A DNA stretch of 43,894 bases, from NCBI GenBank assembly GCA_903900335.1, contig CAIUMP010000031.1:1-43894 (forward strand). The letters run 5' to 3'. Positions within the stretch are counted from its first letter, which is position 1. The number at the start of each line of letters is the position of its first letter. The DNA comes from an uncultured Ignavibacteriota bacterium. Its GTDB lineage: Bacteria; Bacteroidota; Ignavibacteria; Palsa-1295. Shown piece after piece: positions 27,717 through 38,526 of this stretch. Below the pieces are notes generated by a model. The model searched no databases, was not told the DNA's origin, and worked only from the letters and a program-made list of their open reading frames with translations. Position numbers and translations under genes: made by a program.

Positions 27717-29210
27717 CTATTCCGGTTTCAACGGTCGACCGGCCTCATAATCGAATAGTGTCTTTTGCGTGAGATCCGCAAGTGCCAAATGCACGGCGAC
27801 TTCCGCAGTTAACGATGAGAGCCTCGCTTTTGTGAGGCGTTGCTGTCCAAGTGTGAGATCCTGTGAAGTGATCTTCCCTGCGTCGAACCTGGATCGAGAG
27901 AGCCCGTAAGCCTTCTCAGCTACGGCAACCGACTTTTTCGCAACCTCTACCTGCTTCCGAGCCGATTCCAGTTGTTCGATCGTACTCCGAACCTCCGCTT
28001 CTACCTCTTGCTGCTTAATCGCAAGTGCGGTCCGAGAGATTTCGATTCCGGCCTCAGCTGCATCCATTCGAAGCGAGTGCACCCCCCAATCGAAGATCGG
28101 GACCGATATCAGAAGAGTCAACCCGCGATTGACATAGGGATTCTGCGAGATCAATGAAAGAGAGGTAGCATCCTGGGACGCACCGAAGCTCCCAGTAAGC
28201 GAAGCATTTATTGCTCGCGTGTTCCCTGTTCGCGCCATCGCGTTTTCGCTCCGTTCGATATCAAAACGAGAAGACAAGATATCGGCACGCGCCTCGAGGG
28301 CGCGGTGCACTGCTTCGCCGGGTTCTACTACCATTTCATCACCAGATAGACTATCCAGAGAAGCAGTGATAGGACTTGTTAGTGATTGTCCCAATGCCGC
28401 TTGCAAAGCTCGCTCAGCGGCAAGCAATTGCCGTTCTCGATCAAACAAGTCTGTGCGAGCACTTGCGAGATCCACCTCCAGCTCCAGCGCATCCACTTCA
28501 GCAATCAGTCCTGCTTTGAACTTGTTCGAAGCAAGTTGGTAGTTGGCTGCACTCGCGGCCACTTGCTCCTCTTGGATCGCCAGCTGCTGTTGGTTCTGAT
28601 AGAGATTGTAGAACAGACTCTTGATCGTGTAGTTGATCGTTGCCCAAGCAGTCAGGTACTCTGCGCGCGCAAGTTCGAGATTCATCTCAGACTCTCGCTC
28701 CGAAAGCTTCATCTCATTCGTCTTGAAGATCGGCTGATCCAGAGTGATCGAACCAACACCGAGATAGTCTTGGATACTTTCACCAGCGGCCGTTAGCTGG
28801 GTACGACGATATAGACTGGTGTTAAGGGAAAGTGTGCCACCGGTCCAATAAACGGGTTGTCGAATTGTTAAGCCCGGACCGAACTCTGTAACTCGCGCGC
28901 TGAGAAGGTCCGTTAATCCGCTACTAGGGTTGTATATTGGAGTCGTGTTGTCGGAGTAAATTGGCGCGGCAAGCGTCAGATCAACCTGGGAGCGGAGCGA
29001 ACGGCTCGCTGCCTCAGCATTGTCGCGAGCGATCTCATAGCTACGCTTGGCTTGAATAAGCGCAGGAGCTTGAGAGTGCGCAATGCGAAGGCATTCGTCG
29101 AGCGTAACCGAGCGCTGCGCAATAGCCGTGGAAAGTACTGGGGCGAGTAGGATTGATACATAAAGCAATGTACCAATACTTTTCGCTATTGTTACCATGT
29201 GTCTATTCAT
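27717..29210 (-). CDS. TolC family outer-membrane efflux protein
   Basis: 497 residues; ATG 29210 overlaps the permease stop by 8 bp, while ATG 29198 would avoid the overlap. A signal peptide ending STAIAQ precedes two outer-membrane-efflux-protein repeats rich in long helices (RSYEIARDNAEAASRSLRSQ; later KQQEVEAEVRSTIEQLESAR and YGLSRSRFDAGKITSQDLTL). Such proteins form trimeric channels spanning outer membrane and periplasm. Gene order adaptor, permease, TolC indicates a tripartite MacAB-TolC-type pump. Last gene of the long minus-strand run. Confidence 0.92.
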   Translation of the reverse strand: MNRHMVTIAKSIGTLLYVSILLAPVLSTAIAQRSVTLDECLRIAHSQAPALIQAKRSYEIARDNAEAASRSLRSQVDLTLAAPIYSDNTTPIYNPSSGLTDLLSARVTEFGPGLTIRQPVYWTGGTLSLNTSLYRRTQLTAAGESIQDYLGVGSITLDQPIFKTNEMKLSERESEMNLELARAEYLTAWATINYTIKSLFYNLYQNQQQLAIQEEQVAASAANYQLASNKFKAGLIAEVDALELEVDLASARTDLFDRERQLLAAERALQAALGQSLTSPITASLDSLSGDEMVVEPGEAVHRALEARADILSSRFDIERSENAMARTGNTRAINASLTGSFGASQDATSLSLISQNPYVNRGLTLLISVPIFDWGVHSLRMDAAEAGIEISRTALAIKQQEVEAEVRSTIEQLESARKQVEVAKKSVAVAEKAYGLSRSRFDAGKITSQDLTLGQQRLTKARLSSLTAEVAVHLALADLTQKTLFDYEAGRPLKPE

Positions 29211-30522
29211 ATCGGAGCGACTCTATCGGATCTTTGCGAGCGGCCTGTCGCGCTGGATAGTAACCAAACGCGATGCCCGTCGCAACGCTTACGCCGAATG
29301 CCACGATCATCGAGATGGGTGTTAGTACTGTTCGCCACTCGGCATACATGGAGATCGCCCTCGTCATAGCATAACCTAGTATCAATCCCATGATCCCGCC
29401 CGACATGGACAGCATCACAGCCTCAGCTAGGAATTGGGAAGTAACAACTCGTGCAGTTGCACCGAGAGCGCGACGAATTCCGATCTCACGCGTACGTTCG
29501 AGTACGCTCGCGAGCATGATGTTCATGATTCCAATTCCGCCAACGAGAAGAGAGATGCTCGCGATGGCGAGCATGACGATATTAAAGATACGCTGCGTCG
29601 CTTGCGATTGGCGCAGTAACTCTTCCGGCACCGTGACGGCGAAATCTTCGACCTTGTTATGTCGGCGCGTAAGGATGCGACTGATGATTGCCGCCGATTC
29701 GCCCGCATCGGCATCGGCCTTGAGCTTCACCGTGATCTGGTCAATTGGTGGCGAAGCCTTGTTGCTTCCGTTGAAGGAATACATGCCCCCGCCCCCGAAT
29801 ATCGTGACGTTTCCACCATTGTCGTCTTTATCCTTTTCGCGACCAAACTTCGTCTCAGATGTGGTTACCGGTACGTAGACATCCATGTTTGGATCGCGCT
29901 CACCAGGACTGGAGTACTTTGCTTCATGTGCCTTTTCTTCCATCACACCGATCACCGTGAACCACTCGTCGCCAAGCTTGAGATGCTCTCCGAGCGCTGG
30001 ACCGAATTGAAAAAGCTTACGCCTCGCTGTCGATCCAATAACACAGTAATTCGCCATTGACTGCATATCCGCACTCGAAATGAAACGTCCTTCTTTCAGA
30101 GTCGTGGGATAAAGGACCGTGTACGTGGGGGTTACACCGAGAACCATTAGATCTGTATGTTCACCACCATGGAAGGCGTGTTTGTGATGTTCGGCGTTCG
30201 CCTCGACAGCTTCCGCAAATGTGCATTCAGAAAGGATCGCATCAGCGTCCTTGGTCGTAAGCCCAAGTGAGTTGGTTACTTTCGATTGATCTTTCCCGCG
30301 CTCTTTCTGCGCTTCTTCGGACACAGCTTTGACGATAATGTTATGTAACCCCATTACGGAGATCTGTTCCATCGTCTCTTGCCGGGCGCCCTCACCAATC
30401 GAGAGCATCGCCACAACGGCCCCAACTCCAAAGACGACCCCAAGTACCGTCAGCATAGAGCGAACCTTGTGCGCAAGGACGCTCTGGAGACTCATCTCTA
30501 TTATTTCCGACAAGTTAAGCAT
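29203..30522 (-). CDS. MacB/FtsX-type ABC transporter permease (no ATPase domain)
   Basis: 439 residues. N-terminal cytoplasmic/TM1 segment SVLAHKVRSMLTVLGVVFGVG, a large periplasmic (MacB_PCD-type) domain, then three C-terminal membrane helices starting IVMLAIASISLLVGGIGIMN, followed by MLASVLERTREIGIRRALGA, the coupling motif, and the ending YYPARQAARKDPIESLRYE. This is the MacB/LolCE-type mechanotransmission permease. E. coli MacB carries its ATPase on the same chain; here there is none, and no separate ATPase gene is in the neighbourhood. Lies 29 bp after the adaptor gene and overlaps the TolC-like gene. Confidence 0.92.
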   Translation of the reverse strand: MLNLSEIIEMSLQSVLAHKVRSMLTVLGVVFGVGAVVAMLSIGEGARQETMEQISVMGLHNIIVKAVSEEAQKERGKDQSKVTNSLGLTTKDADAILSECTFAEAVEANAEHHKHAFHGGEHTDLMVLGVTPTYTVLYPTTLKEGRFISSADMQSMANYCVIGSTARRKLFQFGPALGEHLKLGDEWFTVIGVMEEKAHEAKYSSPGERDPNMDVYVPVTTSETKFGREKDKDDNGGNVTIFGGGGMYSFNGSNKASPPIDQITVKLKADADAGESAAIISRILTRRHNKVEDFAVTVPEELLRQSQATQRIFNIVMLAIASISLLVGGIGIMNIMLASVLERTREIGIRRALGATARVVTSQFLAEAVMLSMSGGIMGLILGYAMTRAISMYAEWRTVLTPISMIVAFGVSVATGIAFGYYPARQAARKDPIESLRYE

Positions 30523-30551
30523 TAGGTTCGAGGATTTTTGAAGTGGGATTC

Positions 30552-31850
30552 TTAAACTTTCGGCTTCCCATCACTCTTCCCCGGCTTGTCCTCTTTTTCA
30601 GTAGCCTTGTTTGGATCGGTCAAACTAACCTTCTCGCCTTCTTTGAGACCCTTTGCAACAATCACGAAATTATCATTTTTCGTCCCAAGTGTGACCGGGC
30701 GTCTTTCGAAGGATGAACCGTTCTCCACATAGACTACGGGCTTGCCTGCATCATCAAAGACAGACTCGATCGGCACCGAGATAACATTATCAACTTTGCT
30801 CACCATTATGCGCGCTGCGACCGTCATGCCGGGACGCAGAACTGAATCGGCTGCATCGAGATCCACGAGTACCTCGAAAACCTTTACGCTGGGGTTCGAC
30901 TCCTTTGCGTTGCCAATGGATGCAACACTCTTGATCTTACCCGTAAACTTCTTATCCGGAAATGCATCAAGCGTAACCTCAACTGCCTGATCGTTCTTCA
31001 CCTTGCTCACATCCACTTCGTTGACTTCCAGCACAGCTTGCATGTGCGAGAGATCGGGCAGTTGCATCACAGGCTGTCCGCCCCAGAGCTGATCGCCTTT
31101 GCCGATCTTCTTGCCGGTATTCCAATTCCGATTATAGACGATGAGCCCGCTAGCGGGGGCATGAACGGTGAGGCGTTCGAGATCGAGCGTGGCGCGTGAT
31201 AGTGCGTTTGTGATCTGCGCGATCCGTAAGTCCAGGCTGGCAAGTTCGCTCTTCCGCACGGCGGTTTTGCCTTTCAGGTTTTCGTCCGCTTGCTTGAATG
31301 CAAGCTCCGCTTTCTTCAGCTCCAACTGCGACTCCCGCTGTTTTGCATCCGACTCGAACTTCATCGCATCGTTCGCAAGCTTGGCAAGTTCAAAACTTAG
31401 CTTCGCGTTCTCGTAGGCGATCTCCGCGTCGGACTTATCGGATTTTTGCTGTGCCCGCAATTTATCCATATCCGCCTGAGCAAGCTTGAGGTCGTTCTCT
31501 TTGTCCGAGATATTCTTTAGCTGATCGGCCTGATCGAACGTCACGACGACCGCGCCACTATCCACCGTGGTGCCTTCGGGCGCGATATACTGCACGGCAA
31601 GCTGCGAGCGGCCACCGGAGGTCATCACCGGGGAGGTAACCGAGCGCGAGTGCTCCGCCTGCAACTCGCCCGTCTCCACGACGACAATATCGAACGTGCC
31701 GCGTTTTGCGGTTGCCGTTAGGTGCGCCGACGCGCTGCCGCCAAAGAGCGAACGGACGGGGAAGTACGCGATGACAACAAGCGCCGCGGCAGCGAGGAGC
31801 TTGTTACGGCGTGTCCAGAAGGTTTTGCGGGAAGTGGAAGGGGCACTCAT
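30552..31850 (-). CDS. MacA/HlyD-type periplasmic adaptor (membrane fusion) protein
   Basis: 432 residues from ATG 31850 (MSAPSTSRKTFWTRRNKLLA); the longer frame runs back into the repeat at 31890 and is not plausible. One N-terminal membrane anchor (LLAAAALVVIAYFPV), then lipoyl-like halves (VVVETGELQAEHSRSV and LTVHAPASGLIVYNRNWNTG) flanking a long alpha-helical hairpin (about 120-215, KLAQADMDKLRAQQKSDKSD ... ). Beta-barrel and membrane-proximal domains follow (VEVTLDAFPDKKFTGKIKSV, VLRPGMTVAARIMVSKVDNV, VPIESVFDDAGKPVVYVENG). The C-terminus is Lys/Asp-rich. It bridges the permease to the TolC-like channel. Confidence 0.92.
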   Translation of the reverse strand: MSAPSTSRKTFWTRRNKLLAAAALVVIAYFPVRSLFGGSASAHLTATAKRGTFDIVVVETGELQAEHSRSVTSPVMTSGGRSQLAVQYIAPEGTTVDSGAVVVTFDQADQLKNISDKENDLKLAQADMDKLRAQQKSDKSDAEIAYENAKLSFELAKLANDAMKFESDAKQRESQLELKKAELAFKQADENLKGKTAVRKSELASLDLRIAQITNALSRATLDLERLTVHAPASGLIVYNRNWNTGKKIGKGDQLWGGQPVMQLPDLSHMQAVLEVNEVDVSKVKNDQAVEVTLDAFPDKKFTGKIKSVASIGNAKESNPSVKVFEVLVDLDAADSVLRPGMTVAARIMVSKVDNVISVPIESVFDDAGKPVVYVENGSSFERRPVTLGTKNDNFVIVAKGLKEGEKVSLTDPNKATEKEDKPGKSDGKPKV

Positions 31851-31889
31851 TGGGCGTGTGGCGAATAGACTGCGTGGTCGTTCTGCATC

Positions 31890-31926
31890 GAAAGTGCAAC
31901 GACCGGAGAGGGGAAATGTTTCAGGG
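31890..31926. repeat. 37-bp element, copy B (after thioredoxin-like gene B)
   Basis: Matches the copy at 34375-34411 at 35 of 37 positions (GAAAGTGCAACGACCGGAG at one end, GGGAAATGTTTCAGGG at the other). It lies ~20 bp past the stop at 31945. Confidence 0.8.
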
Positions 31927-31944
31927 GGACGTGGGGAGGTCGAG

Positions 31945-32439
31945 CTAATGCGCCGTTTTACTGTGCAGCAGTTTGCGGAGCTTTGGACTAAGGTCACCGT
32001 CGAACTCATCGTGTTTTATCACGCCGAGGCAAATTCCAGTCTTCCGCTCATACACGGCAAGACCATCATCGACAGCCAAGTGCAGGGAAGTACGAATGTC
32101 GCCGTGATCGACAATAGCACGATGAGCCCAACTATAGTTGCGGATGAATGACTTCAATTCGCGTTCGCGCGCTACACTAACGGCGGCAACCAACGTAACT
32201 TTTTCGGCGCTGGCGGGCATGGTGTTGACGGAAGCCACCGCTTCATCCGCGAGCGCCACACACTTGATGCAATCACCCGGTGTAATAAGTAACACAGCGA
32301 CATAAGGCTGGTGAGAATCCCCGGCAAGTGAATCGAGCAGAGCAATTGGCGCGGCTTGAGCCGCAGCACGGTCAATCCCTGCCGCTTGCATGGCAACGGC
32401 AAACACAAAAAGAAAAGTTAAGCGAAAGATTGTCCTCAT
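31945..32439 (-). CDS. Exported thioredoxin-like protein with GDCIKC motif (module B)
   Basis: 164 residues; its ATG overlaps the stop of the propeller lipoprotein (ATGA, 32436-32439). A signal peptide (MRTIFRLTFLFVFAVAMQAA, cut near DRAAAQ-A) exports it. A strand YVAVLLITPGDCIKC ends in a CxxC pair (Cys57, Cys60) at the start of a helix, as in thioredoxin folds; later VTLVAAVSVARERELKSFIR and the end GVIKHDEFDGDL fit the fold. No cis-Pro motif is obvious, so redox activity is uncertain. Paired with the same type of gene in module A. Confidence 0.75.
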   Translation of the reverse strand: MRTIFRLTFLFVFAVAMQAAGIDRAAAQAAPIALLDSLAGDSHQPYVAVLLITPGDCIKCVALADEAVASVNTMPASAEKVTLVAAVSVARERELKSFIRNYSWAHRAIVDHGDIRTSLHLAVDDGLAVYERKTGICLGVIKHDEFDGDLSPKLRKLLHSKTAH

Positions 32440-33763: not shown

Positions 33764-34060
33764 CTACTCATCGAGTGTAGCATATCCGATTGGATCGTCA
33801 CTAGGCGGTTGTATGGCGTGGAAACCATCATTAACGTGGAGTCCGGAGCCGTCTGCGGTGGCACATATGCCTCCCCCGTCACAACTCCAAAAGACTTTTT
33901 TGCCATCAAGCGATTGGCTTGTGCCTGATGCTTTACCCACCGTTCCGGAATGTATGGTCCAGTTCCCCGGAAAATCCGTGGCGTATGAACCGGTATTTGA
34001 CACCAAAACCGCTGTGAATAATGGAATCGCGGTTAAAGCCGCAATTAGGCCTTTTTTCAT
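33764..34060 (-). CDS. Small exported CxGxGxC peptide (module B)
   Basis: 98 residues from ATG 34060, giving signal peptide MKKGLIAALTAIPLFTAVLV ... SYA-T; the longer frame adds 10 residues. The mature ~70 residues are Gly/Ser-rich and acidic at the end. The only cysteines are Cys60 and Cys66 in SCDGGGICATADGSG. The peptide at 36255 carries the same C-x-G-x-G-x-C spacing and neighbours. The spacing would allow a small disulfide loop. Such a small exported peptide beside a propeller lipoprotein recalls the NVEALA-peptide loci of Bacteroides, by analogy only. Start has no Shine-Dalgarno. Confidence 0.65.
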   Translation of the reverse strand: MKKGLIAALTAIPLFTAVLVSNTGSYATDFPGNWTIHSGTVGKASGTSQSLDGKKVFWSCDGGGICATADGSGLHVNDGFHAIQPPSDDPIGYATLDE

Positions 34061-34120: not shown

Positions 34121-34275
34121 TCCCCCTCTCCCCAAAAGCTGGATCGCGTACGAAGGATGGCCTGTCCTTCGAGCCAGCAATTAGCAGAGCGAGGTTATAG
34201 GTAAGAGTGTTTTCGCGGGCGAAATGGGACAGACAAAATTCGTTTTTTGGAGATTTATTCTTAGGCTTCGTTTTT
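34121..34275 (-). repeat. ~155-bp leader direct repeat, copy B
   Basis: Nearly identical to 36616-36772 (shared landmarks CTCCCCAAAAGCTGG, GAAGGATGGCCTGTCCTTCG, AGCCAGCAATTAGCAGAGCG, ATGGGACAGACAAAATTC). Includes a hairpin with 7-nt loop (CGAAGGA-CAGGCCA-TCCTTCG). Sits directly upstream of peptide B, and continues to about 34275, where it matches bases from the end of the sigma-like gene of module A. Confidence 0.85.
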
Positions 34276-34374: not shown

Positions 34375-34411
34375 GAAAGTGCAACGACCGGAGGAGGGAA
34401 ATGTTTCAGGG
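34375..34411. repeat. 37-bp element, copy A (after thioredoxin-like gene A)
   Basis: Second copy of the 37-bp element at 31890-31926 (two mismatches), ~40 bp past the stop at 34451, the same relative place as in module B. Confidence 0.8.
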
Positions 34412-34450
34412 AGCAGTGGACTCCGAAGGAGCAAGTAAGTGCCCGGAGGA

Positions 34451-34909
34451 CTACCTATTGCCTCGTCCTTCGACCACGCGAAGGAAGTCTTTGCAACTTG
34501 CCCCCAAGAATGCGTCCTGTGAGAATATGTGTAGAACCCTCCCCTTTCCACTTAGTATGGCAAGCCGTGAGGAATTAGGTATCCCAAGCGCAGCCAGTTT
34601 GCCTCGGTCGGGATAAGCAGGTAGCGTCCAATCTGTTCCTTGCGTAAATAGCGGGACTTCTTTTTCGCGTTCACAATTGACTACTGCAAATGCATGAATA
34701 GTCTTCCTTTTCGCCGAGAGCTTTAAGCAAGCAAGGTTCTCCCTGAATTTCGTGATGCATTTCTGACAATCACCTACCTGGCCTACAAAAAGCAGTATGC
34801 GATCATTAGCCCTAATGTGCTGCTTCGCGATAACCCAGTCCATAAAATCAGGAGGGGTTTTAGTGGGAACCGAGAACAAGAGCATGAGCGAAAGCAGAAT
34901 AGAAGCCAT
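34451..34909 (-). CDS. Exported thioredoxin-like protein with GDCQKC motif (module A)
   Basis: 152 residues from ATG 34909, 5 bp after the propeller gene's stop; a longer frame overlaps that gene. Signal peptide MASILLSLMLLFSV. A strand RILLFVGQVGDCQKC ends with CxxC at Cys48/Cys51. The context GDC-x-KC is identical to the module B protein. The later part has a beta strand AFAVVNCEREKE, WTLPAYPDRGK and RLAILSGKGRVLHIFSQ, consistent with a thioredoxin-like core; LPAYP could be the cis-Pro strand. Likely periplasmic oxidoreductase or binding partner for a neighbouring exported protein; substrate unknown. Confidence 0.75.
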   Translation of the reverse strand: MASILLSLMLLFSVPTKTPPDFMDWVIAKQHIRANDRILLFVGQVGDCQKCITKFRENLACLKLSAKRKTIHAFAVVNCEREKEVPLFTQGTDWTLPAYPDRGKLAALGIPNSSRLAILSGKGRVLHIFSQDAFLGASCKDFLRVVEGRGNR

Positions 34910-36254: not shown

Positions 36255-36563
36255 TCAGTTATTGATTAGTGTACCTGAATCCTGGGATGCATCGTTGGGA
36301 TCATAACCGTTGTCAGGCTGATTTATCACTCCTTTAACAACCAATGTATGTCCCCCATTTGTGGTATACCAGCAATTCCCTGTTCCGGAACAATGGACCG
36401 TCACCGTTCCATTTGGATTAGTTGTCCCTGTGCCACAATTCCCCGTGATAGCAGGTCCACTCCATGTTCCTGGCCCATTAAACTCTTGGTCAGCGTGAAG
36501 GACGCCTATTGCCGGGATTGCCAATATCAGCCCCAAGACAAAAAGACTTATCTTCTTTCTCAT
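36255..36563 (-). CDS. Small exported CxGxGxC peptide (module A)
   Basis: 102 residues. Signal peptide MRKKISLFVLGLILAIPAIG ... LHA-D. The mature ~78 residues are rich in Gly, Asn, Thr and end NQPDNGYDPNDASQDSG. Cysteines: Cys43, Cys58 and Cys64, the last two in HCSGTGNCWYTTNGG, the CxGxGxC motif shared with peptide B. The segment after it also aligns (GGHTLVVKG versus GSGLHVNDG). First gene after the leader repeat, so translated first within the module. The start has no Shine-Dalgarno sequence, as often in Bacteroidota. Confidence 0.65.
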   Translation of the reverse strand: MRKKISLFVLGLILAIPAIGVLHADQEFNGPGTWSGPAITGNCGTGTTNPNGTVTVHCSGTGNCWYTTNGGHTLVVKGVINQPDNGYDPNDASQDSGTLINN

Positions 36564-36615: not shown

Positions 36616-36772
36616 TTCCCCCCCTCCCCAAAAGCTGGTTCGCGATCGAAGGATGGCCTGTCCTTCGAGCCAGCAATTAGCAGAGCGAGGTTAATAGTAA
36701 GAGTCGTTTCGCACCCAAAATGGGACAGACAAAATTCATTTTTTTGAAGATTTATTTTTGGGCTTCGTTCGG
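36616..36772 (-). repeat. ~155-bp leader direct repeat, copy A
   Basis: Near-identical to 34121-34275. It overlaps the 3' end of the sigma-like gene and runs to the peptide A leader hairpin. Includes the TCGAAGGA-CAGGCCA-TCCTTCGA hairpin. It probably carries the promoter and leader of each module; the unit appears duplicated with its genes. Confidence 0.85.
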
Positions 36773-37312
36773 GCTGGCTTTTTGCCGGCGGGGGGGGGGG
36801 GCAGAAATTCCCTGCTCGCGTAGCATCTCCCGTTTTGCCTCCTCGCGTAACTTCCCCATCGCGCGAGTGTACCGCTTGCGAATGGTCTCCACTTTTTCAC
36901 CCAGCGTGGTTGCCAACTCACTAAAGGGAATATCAAAAATGGTGTGCTGCATCACAAGCTCCTCCTCGTGCTGCTCGAGCATCTTCAAAAGGCTCATCAT
37001 ATCGATCGTTGCCTCCGCTCTCTGCGCCGCACTTTCCTCATAGATCGGTTCGAGCAACAACGCTTCAATAGAAATAAAGCGCTTTCCATAGCCGAGCATG
37101 TTCTTAACAGCATTGCCAGCAACGACGATGGTCCAATCCTCTCGTTTGCCACGTCGTTCAATATCTGCCGCCTTCGGCTCAATCAGCCACTGCTCGCGGG
37201 CATGTGCCAAAGCGTCTTCAACGTCCTGTCGCTGGGCCTTACGGAAAATTCCGTGAAGCCTCATTTGAATGTTCCACCAAAACTGCTTCTCAACTTCCGA
37301 CATTACTGGCAT
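36752..37312 (-). CDS. Divergent RNA polymerase sigma-factor-like protein with a homopolymer tract
   Basis: 186 residues from ATG 37312 (37303 also possible); a longer frame has no family character upstream. Helical, no signal peptide. The C-terminal half has a region-4-like helix-turn-helix: LKMLEQHEEELVMQHTIFDI, then PFSELATTLGEKVETIRKRYTRAMGKLREEAKR. Region 2 is weak (MRLHGIFRKAQRQDVEDALA HAREQW). It lies directly before module A and could activate it. The last codons cross a run of 12 G (12 C on the coding strand). With the run as given the tail reads APPPRRQKASPNEAQK. One base fewer gives APPPAGKKPARTKPKNKSSK and a stop at 36736. Confidence 0.65.
   Translation of the reverse strand: MPVMSEVEKQFWWNIQMRLHGIFRKAQRQDVEDALAHAREQWLIEPKAADIERRGKREDWTIVVAGNAVKNMLGYGKRFISIEALLLEPIYEESAAQRAEATIDMMSLLKMLEQHEEELVMQHTIFDIPFSELATTLGEKVETIRKRYTRAMGKLREEAKREMLREQGISAPPPRRQKASPNEAQK
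36790..36801. repeat. 12-base G homopolymer in coding sequence
   Basis: Twelve consecutive G in the last ~20 codons of the sigma-like gene; possible slippage site. Confidence 0.9.
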
Positions 37313-37410
37313 GGCCACAGAACGAGAATAATGCAAGAGTGTAGAGGATATGATATGCTCTTTGAAAAGGAGGCCACAACAATTGGTTCCAATTTGGGAA
37401 TATGCGCGTT

Positions 37411-38526
37411 TTACAACGGCGACTTCACCACCCATGCCCGGTGAATCACGGCGTCTGGAAAGCGAGAATCTCGCGTGGTAAAGATGAACGCAAACTGCGA
37501 TTCGGTTGCTTCCGTTAGCGTGCGGTCGTTCACTTGTTTCTTTGCTCGCTTGCCTGGTGTGGAGGCTGTGAGGAAATCGAGGACATTGTCTCTCGTGAGA
37601 TCCGGATTGGCCCCGTTTGTTGGTGCAAGCGCGATGGCTTCCGTCGCCCAGGCGCGCAAATGTTTGTGCCATGCAGATGTGAACATCTCGTGCGAACCAT
37701 ACATATCTCCGCCGACAATCTTTCCATCCAGCGCATATATTGCCCCGACGGAATGCTCTATGTTGGAGGCGAGATCACCAAAGTGTTTCTCGTAAGAGTT
37801 TCTGGGCACGTCGAGCGATTTGCTTTCGAGCGCAAGTTGCAAACTCGTTGGAGACGGATTCCGGGTGACGCTGTCCTTCAGATTATTCGAGAGAGCAGTT
37901 TGCGTCTGCGCCACATCATGCCAGATGGATTCCTGCACCGCGTCACTGCCAATGCTCTCGAACTGCGGCATGGTGCCAAGCGCCTCCAGCAGTTTTAGTT
38001 GATCGGGATCCGGAGCAGTACGACCACCAAGATGTGGCGTGAGAAGCATCCCCGTCAACTCATGCTGAGCGATGACCCGCATGTGGTGCATCGGTGCCAT
38101 TTCGTGTGATGCACTAAATGTCTCGATCGGCTCCGCACCACGCTTGAAGGAACGTCCCTTCTCCACACAATAGACATTGAGGTCGCGCGAGGTGTCATGC
38201 CCAGCGACGACCATGTCGCTTGCAACCATGCGATCCTGCTGCCCGCCTTTGAGAATTGCCGAGGACTCGATGAAGAGATCAGTGTCCGAGCGATTCTCGA
38301 TCCACAGCTTCTGACTATTATTCTCGTGAATTACCGCTCGACCTGTTGCAAGCGCCCTTTCCAATGTGACATACGTGTGAGGGACATCGTCCCGCAACTC
38401 AATCGGAAATATCGTCAGCCTTCCATAGCTTCGCGGCTCGCGAACGATGAGCGAGTCCAGCGAGGCATGCGCCGACATCGGCAGGAATACGACAACAACA
38501 AGAGTAACGAAGATCGACCGAATCAT
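37411..38526 (-). CDS. ARPP-1 / DUF6569 family exported protein
   Basis: 371 residues from ATG 38526 (MIRSIFVTLVVVVFLPMSAHA-S signal peptide); the longer frame adds unlikely residues. Family pattern: TYVTLERALATGRAVIHENN, LWIENRSDTDLFIESSAILK GGQQDRMV, VVAGHDTSRDLNVYCVEKGR. C-terminal half is less typical (ASNIEHSVGAIYALDGKIVGGDMYGS). The family was named for association with ARG and rhodanese/phosphatase proteins and has no clear enzymatic role. Exported to the periplasm here. Located between the SIMPL protein gene and the sigma-like gene, all on the minus strand. Confidence 0.78.
   Translation of the reverse strand: MIRSIFVTLVVVVFLPMSAHASLDSLIVREPRSYGRLTIFPIELRDDVPHTYVTLERALATGRAVIHENNSQKLWIENRSDTDLFIESSAILKGGQQDRMVASDMVVAGHDTSRDLNVYCVEKGRSFKRGAEPIETFSASHEMAPMHHMRVIAQHELTGMLLTPHLGGRTAPDPDQLKLLEALGTMPQFESIGSDAVQESIWHDVAQTQTALSNNLKDSVTRNPSPTSLQLALESKSLDVPRNSYEKHFGDLASNIEHSVGAIYALDGKIVGGDMYGSHEMFTSAWHKHLRAWATEAIALAPTNGANPDLTRDNVLDFLTASTPGKRAKKQVNDRTLTEATESQFAFIFTTRDSRFPDAVIHRAWVVKSPL

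Follow-up and report, generated by a model that had tools for sequence, protein, structure and literature searches.

Small exported two-cysteine peptides encoded with propeller-like lipoproteins and ResA-like CxxC proteins: comparison with the NVEALA loci of Bacteroidota

The described loci closest to the one studied here are those of the NVEALA peptides (PF14055), in which a small exported Cys-containing peptide is followed by a lipoprotein propeller (ca. 350-390 aa) and a CxxC thioredoxin-like protein. The NVEALA loci used for comparison were drawn from other Bacteroidota genomes, which were taken to be Bacteroidales on the basis of the family's known range. The propeller of one of these (locus L109) was matched by PF15869 (TolB_like) at E 1e-87, and the CxxC thioredoxin-like protein of another (locus L097) carried a DUF1573 domain; several of the loci ended before the third gene. 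No function was assigned to the NVEALA peptides in the literature searched.

Three other systems share single traits with the locus. Bacteroidetocins (class IIf) are likewise small Cys-containing exported peptides of Bacteroidota, and most of their regions encode nearby a thiol oxidoreductase that has been proposed to form their disulfides (PMC6671954). Their leader is of the double-glycine type (15 aa) and their ABC transporter contains a peptidase, whereas the present peptides have Sec-type signals; neither the window nor the flanks of the examined units showed such a transporter, and the double-glycine leader was absent from the peptide under study (peptide B), whose leader, read by eye, is a Sec-type signal ending in SYA. 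The ResA/TlpA thiol-disulfide oxidoreductases resemble the CxxC partner, which has a ResA profile match. Polymorphic toxin-immunity systems have in common with the locus a diverged two-gene core between constant flanks, but the variable part here is a small peptide plus a propeller instead of a C-terminal toxin domain.

The window, i.e. the whole 43.9-kb stretch of DNA that was analyzed, belongs to a 4.0-Mb genome in 62 contigs. It contains two tandem units (A upstream, B downstream) on the minus strand, located behind a sigma-factor-like gene; the features are collected in Table 1. The order within a unit is normally peptide, lipoprotein beta-propeller, ResA-like CxxC protein.

Table 1. Positions of the two units and their surroundings in the window
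Feature	Position	Strand	Remarks
Sigma-70 region 4 (ECF-like) gene	36752..37315	-	TIGR02937 at E 2.3e-8, below cut-off; directly upstream of unit A
C12 run (coding strand), near 3' end of sigma gene	36790..36801	-	238 nt before peptide A; candidate phase-variation tract
Constant 5' flank, copy before peptide A	36617..36769	-	88% identical to 34121-34272
Peptide A, 102 aa	36255..36563	-	loop CSGTGNC at 36372-36392
Beta-propeller-like lipoprotein A, 429 aa	34914..36203	-	25% identical to B, BLASTP E 1e-17
CxxC thioredoxin-like protein A, GDCQKC	34451..34909	-	inferred start at MASILL; 29% identical to B over 94 residues, E 2e-8
Constant 3' flank, copy after unit A	34375..34419	-	89% identical to 31890-31934
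Constant 5' flank, copy before peptide B	34121..34272	-	partner of 36617-36769
Peptide B, 98 aa	33764..34060	-	ATG start; Sec-type signal peptide and ca. 71-aa mature part
Probable signal peptide of B, MKKGLIAALTAIPLFTAVLVSNTGSYA, followed by TDF	33980..34060	-	read by eye: KK, hydrophobic core, SYA cleavage site
Cys loop CDGGGIC (Cys60-Cys66) of peptide B	33863..33883	-	both Cys invariant in family, 17/17
Beta-propeller-like lipoprotein B, 421 aa	32436..33701	-	profile and AF2/Foldseek matches; lipobox Cys24
CxxC thioredoxin-like protein B, 164 aa, GDCIKC	31945..32439	-	signal peptide; profile matches ResA, E 1.7e-5
Constant 3' flank, copy after unit B	31890..31934	-	partner of 34375-34419

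The gene of peptide B had been placed correctly at 33764-34060 by an earlier sequence-only reading; it runs from 34060 to 33764. That reading had also described peptide B as a CxGxGxC peptide with only two cysteines and with the Cys spacing of peptide A, and both descriptions were confirmed: Cys60 and Cys66 (context SCDGGGIC) are the sole cysteines of peptide B and enclose DGGGI, and the spacing in A is the same, although A carries a third Cys besides. Among shuffled versions of the mature part of peptide B, 2.6% contained Cx5C and 0.075% contained CxGxGxC.

Peptide B as the sole query yielded no match above noise in 41 relatives, and a pairwise BLASTP of A against B was not significant (E 0.17). 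The peptide family was reached instead by using the lipoprotein propeller as bait; this led to units in other genomes, most of them headed by a gene for a small exported product. With A, B and all signal peptides left out of its construction, the family profile scored peptide B at 24.2 bits and peptide A at 22.3 bits, each above all 1000 of its shuffles (the shuffle maximum for peptide B was 10.8 bits). Given these scores, the relation between A and B was considered real despite the pairwise E of 0.17. The corresponding leave-out test against shuffles was passed by 15 of the 17 family members (L055 and L080 failed). The peptide profile alone recovered a complete further unit (L151) and two more peptides (L152 and, weakly, L133), all with the Cys pair. 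As judged from these profile comparisons, peptide B belongs to a genuine family of small exported proteins with two conserved Cys.

Both cysteines were invariant in all 17 aligned peptides and were also present in the three that were found later by profile; no homologue devoid of both cysteines was found among them. The Gly upstream of the Cys pair was largely conserved in the 17-peptide alignment. The enclosed loop was five residues long in six peptides, six in another six, seven in four and eight in one. CxGxGxC was found in 6/6 of the five-residue loops, and the glycines were not kept in the longer ones (e.g. CDPNPSEWC, CNPNPTIWC and CDTAYPTEQC); thus, of the invariance that had been considered for the cysteines and the glycines together, only that of the cysteines held. 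An AlphaFold2 (AF2) model of peptide B alone was uninformative (pLDDT 40). Outside the alignment, in family f10 of the same class, stands a locus (L127:864-2573) that encodes a 65-aa six-Cys exported peptide, a TolB-like lipoprotein and a thioredoxin-like protein with DCPSC; its propeller reached PF15869 at E 6e-5, below the cut-off.

The association of peptide B with a neighboring CxxC protein, on which the sequence-only reading had relied, was upheld, but that reading had overlooked the propeller lipoprotein, which is also a constant neighbor of the peptide. The order peptide, propeller, CxxC protein recurs in families f1, f4, f14, f15 and f18 of the class, and the three-gene set has undergone repeated duplication. 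Variants occur: in genome G674, two peptide-propeller pairs precede one CxxC gene, and in genome G152 three propellers do so. Searches of Pfam and NCBIfam with the peptide, the propeller and the CxxC protein gave no usable match save AhpC-TSA, which was reached by two relatives of the CxxC protein. An Rfam search gave no match above threshold.

The lipoprotein profile was compared to the PDB, and WD40/NHL propellers were matched, among them designed WRAP-T proteins (E 4e-10) and TRIM2 (E 4e-5). An AF2 model of lipoprotein B was calculated from three sequences (pLDDT 54.5, pTM 0.60), and Foldseek again matched it to WD40/NHL propellers (E 5e-9, probability 1.00). By profile and model, the lipoprotein is predicted to have a propeller fold; because the confidence of the model was low, the fold was taken from it, but not the number of blades or other details. 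The gene of lipoprotein B overlaps that of CxxC protein B by 4 nt. In the alignment of the CxxC proteins, C57, C60 and R91 were invariant in 12/12 sequences, and the family profile matched ResA (E 1.7e-5). Compared with ResA/TlpA, the active site in this family mostly reads PG(D/E/N)C(I/V)KC, and an Arg ca. 30 residues further along is invariant.

The two units of the window are alike at their edges. Identity is 88% across the 153 nt that precede the peptides and 89% across the 45 nt that follow the CxxC genes, and the genes between have only ca. 40% DNA identity. No third copy of either flank was found in the genome; the copies occur only at these units, and a dispersed repeat was ruled out on that ground. 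On the minus strand, the 45-nt repeat includes a TGAAAC-N16-CGTT motif that resembles an ECF-type promoter, and one copy of the repeat lies directly before macA. This gene belongs to a set (27717-31853) encoding a MacA-like adaptor, a MacB-like permease without an ATPase domain (439 aa) and a TolC-like protein. The set was considered as the export machine of the unit and was rejected, since MacA orthologues in two genomes of the same genus had no adjoining unit and the flanks of other units contained no such neighbor.

The same mosaic was examined at synonymous sites in G674. When its contigs C2 and C58 were compared, identity in the region upstream was 91-100% for the most part but fell to 70-77% in places. 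The dS was 0.08 in the signal peptide and 1.3 in the mature peptide, 1.1-1.7 in the middle of the propeller (with an isolated conserved patch) and 0.03 in the CxxC gene, whose product was 99% identical at the amino-acid level. The mature peptide and the propeller core were thus near synonymous saturation between the units. On contig C13 of this genome, the cores of two tandem units had diverged, whereas the flanking leader DNA and C-terminus of the propeller were constant. Because dN/dS was below 1 in the cores, divergence or exchange is claimed and positive selection is not; an old duplication followed by gene conversion of the flanks would account for the mosaic as well. The constant CxxC protein is a feature of G674, for in the window these proteins are no less diverged than the other parts of the units. 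Since variation in the peptide is accompanied by variation in the propeller but not necessarily in the CxxC enzyme, the propeller is indicated as the specific partner of the peptide. On these sequence comparisons, the simplest reading would be that peptide and propeller form a specific pair that is served by the CxxC protein as a shared, generic thiol-disulfide partner.

Sigma-like genes also precede the units L034, L036 and L038, and such a gene was observed in f1 and f4 units only. The C12 run of Table 1 is the only homopolymer of at least nine in the window. In L038, a unit on contig C50 of the genome to which the window belongs, a G14 run is situated at -256, inside the sigma gene of that locus; in L095, a C19 run is found at -260, where the start of the contig is too close for a sigma gene to be visible. 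A C/G run of 12-19 thus lies 238-260 nt before the peptide at 3/3 loci seen in the genus. From the matching position of these runs, it is plausible that expression of the peptide may be phase-variable through slippage of the tract. Twelve copies of a 6-nt repeat (CCTGTG) were located inside the sigma gene upstream of another peptide unit (L034:3543-3614), and the units on contig C13 of G674 have T10-T11 runs ca. 80 nt upstream. Upstream of the sigma gene in the window, an ARPP-1 domain protein is encoded (PF20208, E 2e-39; 37411-38523).

The comparison with NVEALA extends beyond gene order. One subgroup of NVEALA peptides has CxGxG(S/D)(I/L)(D/E)C, which is akin to the CxGxGxC of the present family, and between NVEALA units of one genome (L097/L101 and L100/L107) the upstream DNA and the leader were ca. 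93% identical with the rest diverged, as in the units of the window. However, the present family lacks the N-E-A-L-A motif, its propellers gave no match to PF15869, and the CxxC partner of NVEALA can carry DUF1573. PF14055 matched nothing in the genome of the window, nor any of the first ten family members. Profile comparisons between the two groups were weak, and the peptide profiles aligned in the signal peptide only. Membership of peptide B in NVEALA was rejected, as it has neither the motif nor a PF14055 match. By layout and apparent evolution, the unit would be termed NVEALA-like, yet it was not filed as NVEALA.

The following account was preferred. Peptide B would be exported by Sec as ca. 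71 residues and would be the variable peptide encoded by a three-gene unit. A single small disulfide loop is most likely formed by its Cys60 and Cys66; given an exported peptide whose Cys pair is conserved and whose gene is accompanied by that of an equally conserved kind of CxxC protein, a disulfide is the simplest reading of the Cys-based maturation that had been suggested for peptide B. The ResA-like CxxC protein, as a generic thiol-disulfide partner, would probably close or proofread the loop. The propeller lipoprotein would bind the peptide as its specific partner, either as a receptor or as an immunity or neutralising protein. A near-constant CxxC protein (99%) beside near-saturated peptide and propeller cores, as in G674, fits this pairing with a generic enzyme. 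Expression would be phase-variable via the tract of G or C in the sigma gene upstream, and the role of the system may lie in recognition or antagonism between strains. The account as a whole was judged to have slightly better than an even chance of being correct.

The proposed role in recognition or antagonism was weighed against self-signalling, in which the oxidised peptide would be a pheromone or cell-surface cue that is sensed by the propeller lipoprotein and fed back on the upstream sigma factor. The sigma-like gene directly before the unit, in the window and at L034, L036 and L038, speaks for such a circuit, as does the joint divergence of peptide and propeller. It is made rather unlikely by the f18 units, where no sigma gene was seen, by the lack of an anti-sigma gene or a transmembrane relay in the unit, and by the lack of pairwise similarity between the sigma proteins of the window and of L038. 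Recognition or antagonism between strains was considered somewhat more likely. A structural or adhesive role, with the peptide as a disulfide-pinned component of the surface or matrix and the propeller as its anchor, would suit the Gly/Asn/Ser-rich mature parts of the family peptides and the predicted lipoprotein nature of the propeller, but it leaves the extreme divergence of both between constant flanks unexplained and was held to be improbable. Least credible was that the Cys pair carries a metal, as had been offered earlier, or is modified in some other way (thioether or other RiPP-type). In principle, a short Gly-rich Cx5C loop can bind a metal or undergo modification; however, the recurrent unit comprises no modifying enzyme, only the propeller and the CxxC protein, and a metal site is unlikely given the variable length and sequence of the loop and the lack of a conserved third ligand.

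In its layout, the unit resembles a gene set that is present in gut Bacteroidales but poorly understood, and it possibly serves a variable system of peptide recognition or antagonism. A broader proposal is advanced tentatively, at less than even odds: these loci might represent an undescribed, phase-variable, polymorphic peptide-propeller system across the Bacteroidota, with NVEALA as its Bacteroidales branch, in which the pair is swapped between constant flanks and a thioredoxin-like enzyme is shared, for kin recognition or inter-strain antagonism. With the present family, a second group of peptides without the NVEALA motif but with partners of like kind is at hand. The covariation of peptide and propeller beside a CxxC enzyme that may remain constant points to the propeller as the specific partner of the peptide, and that assignment would bear on both families.
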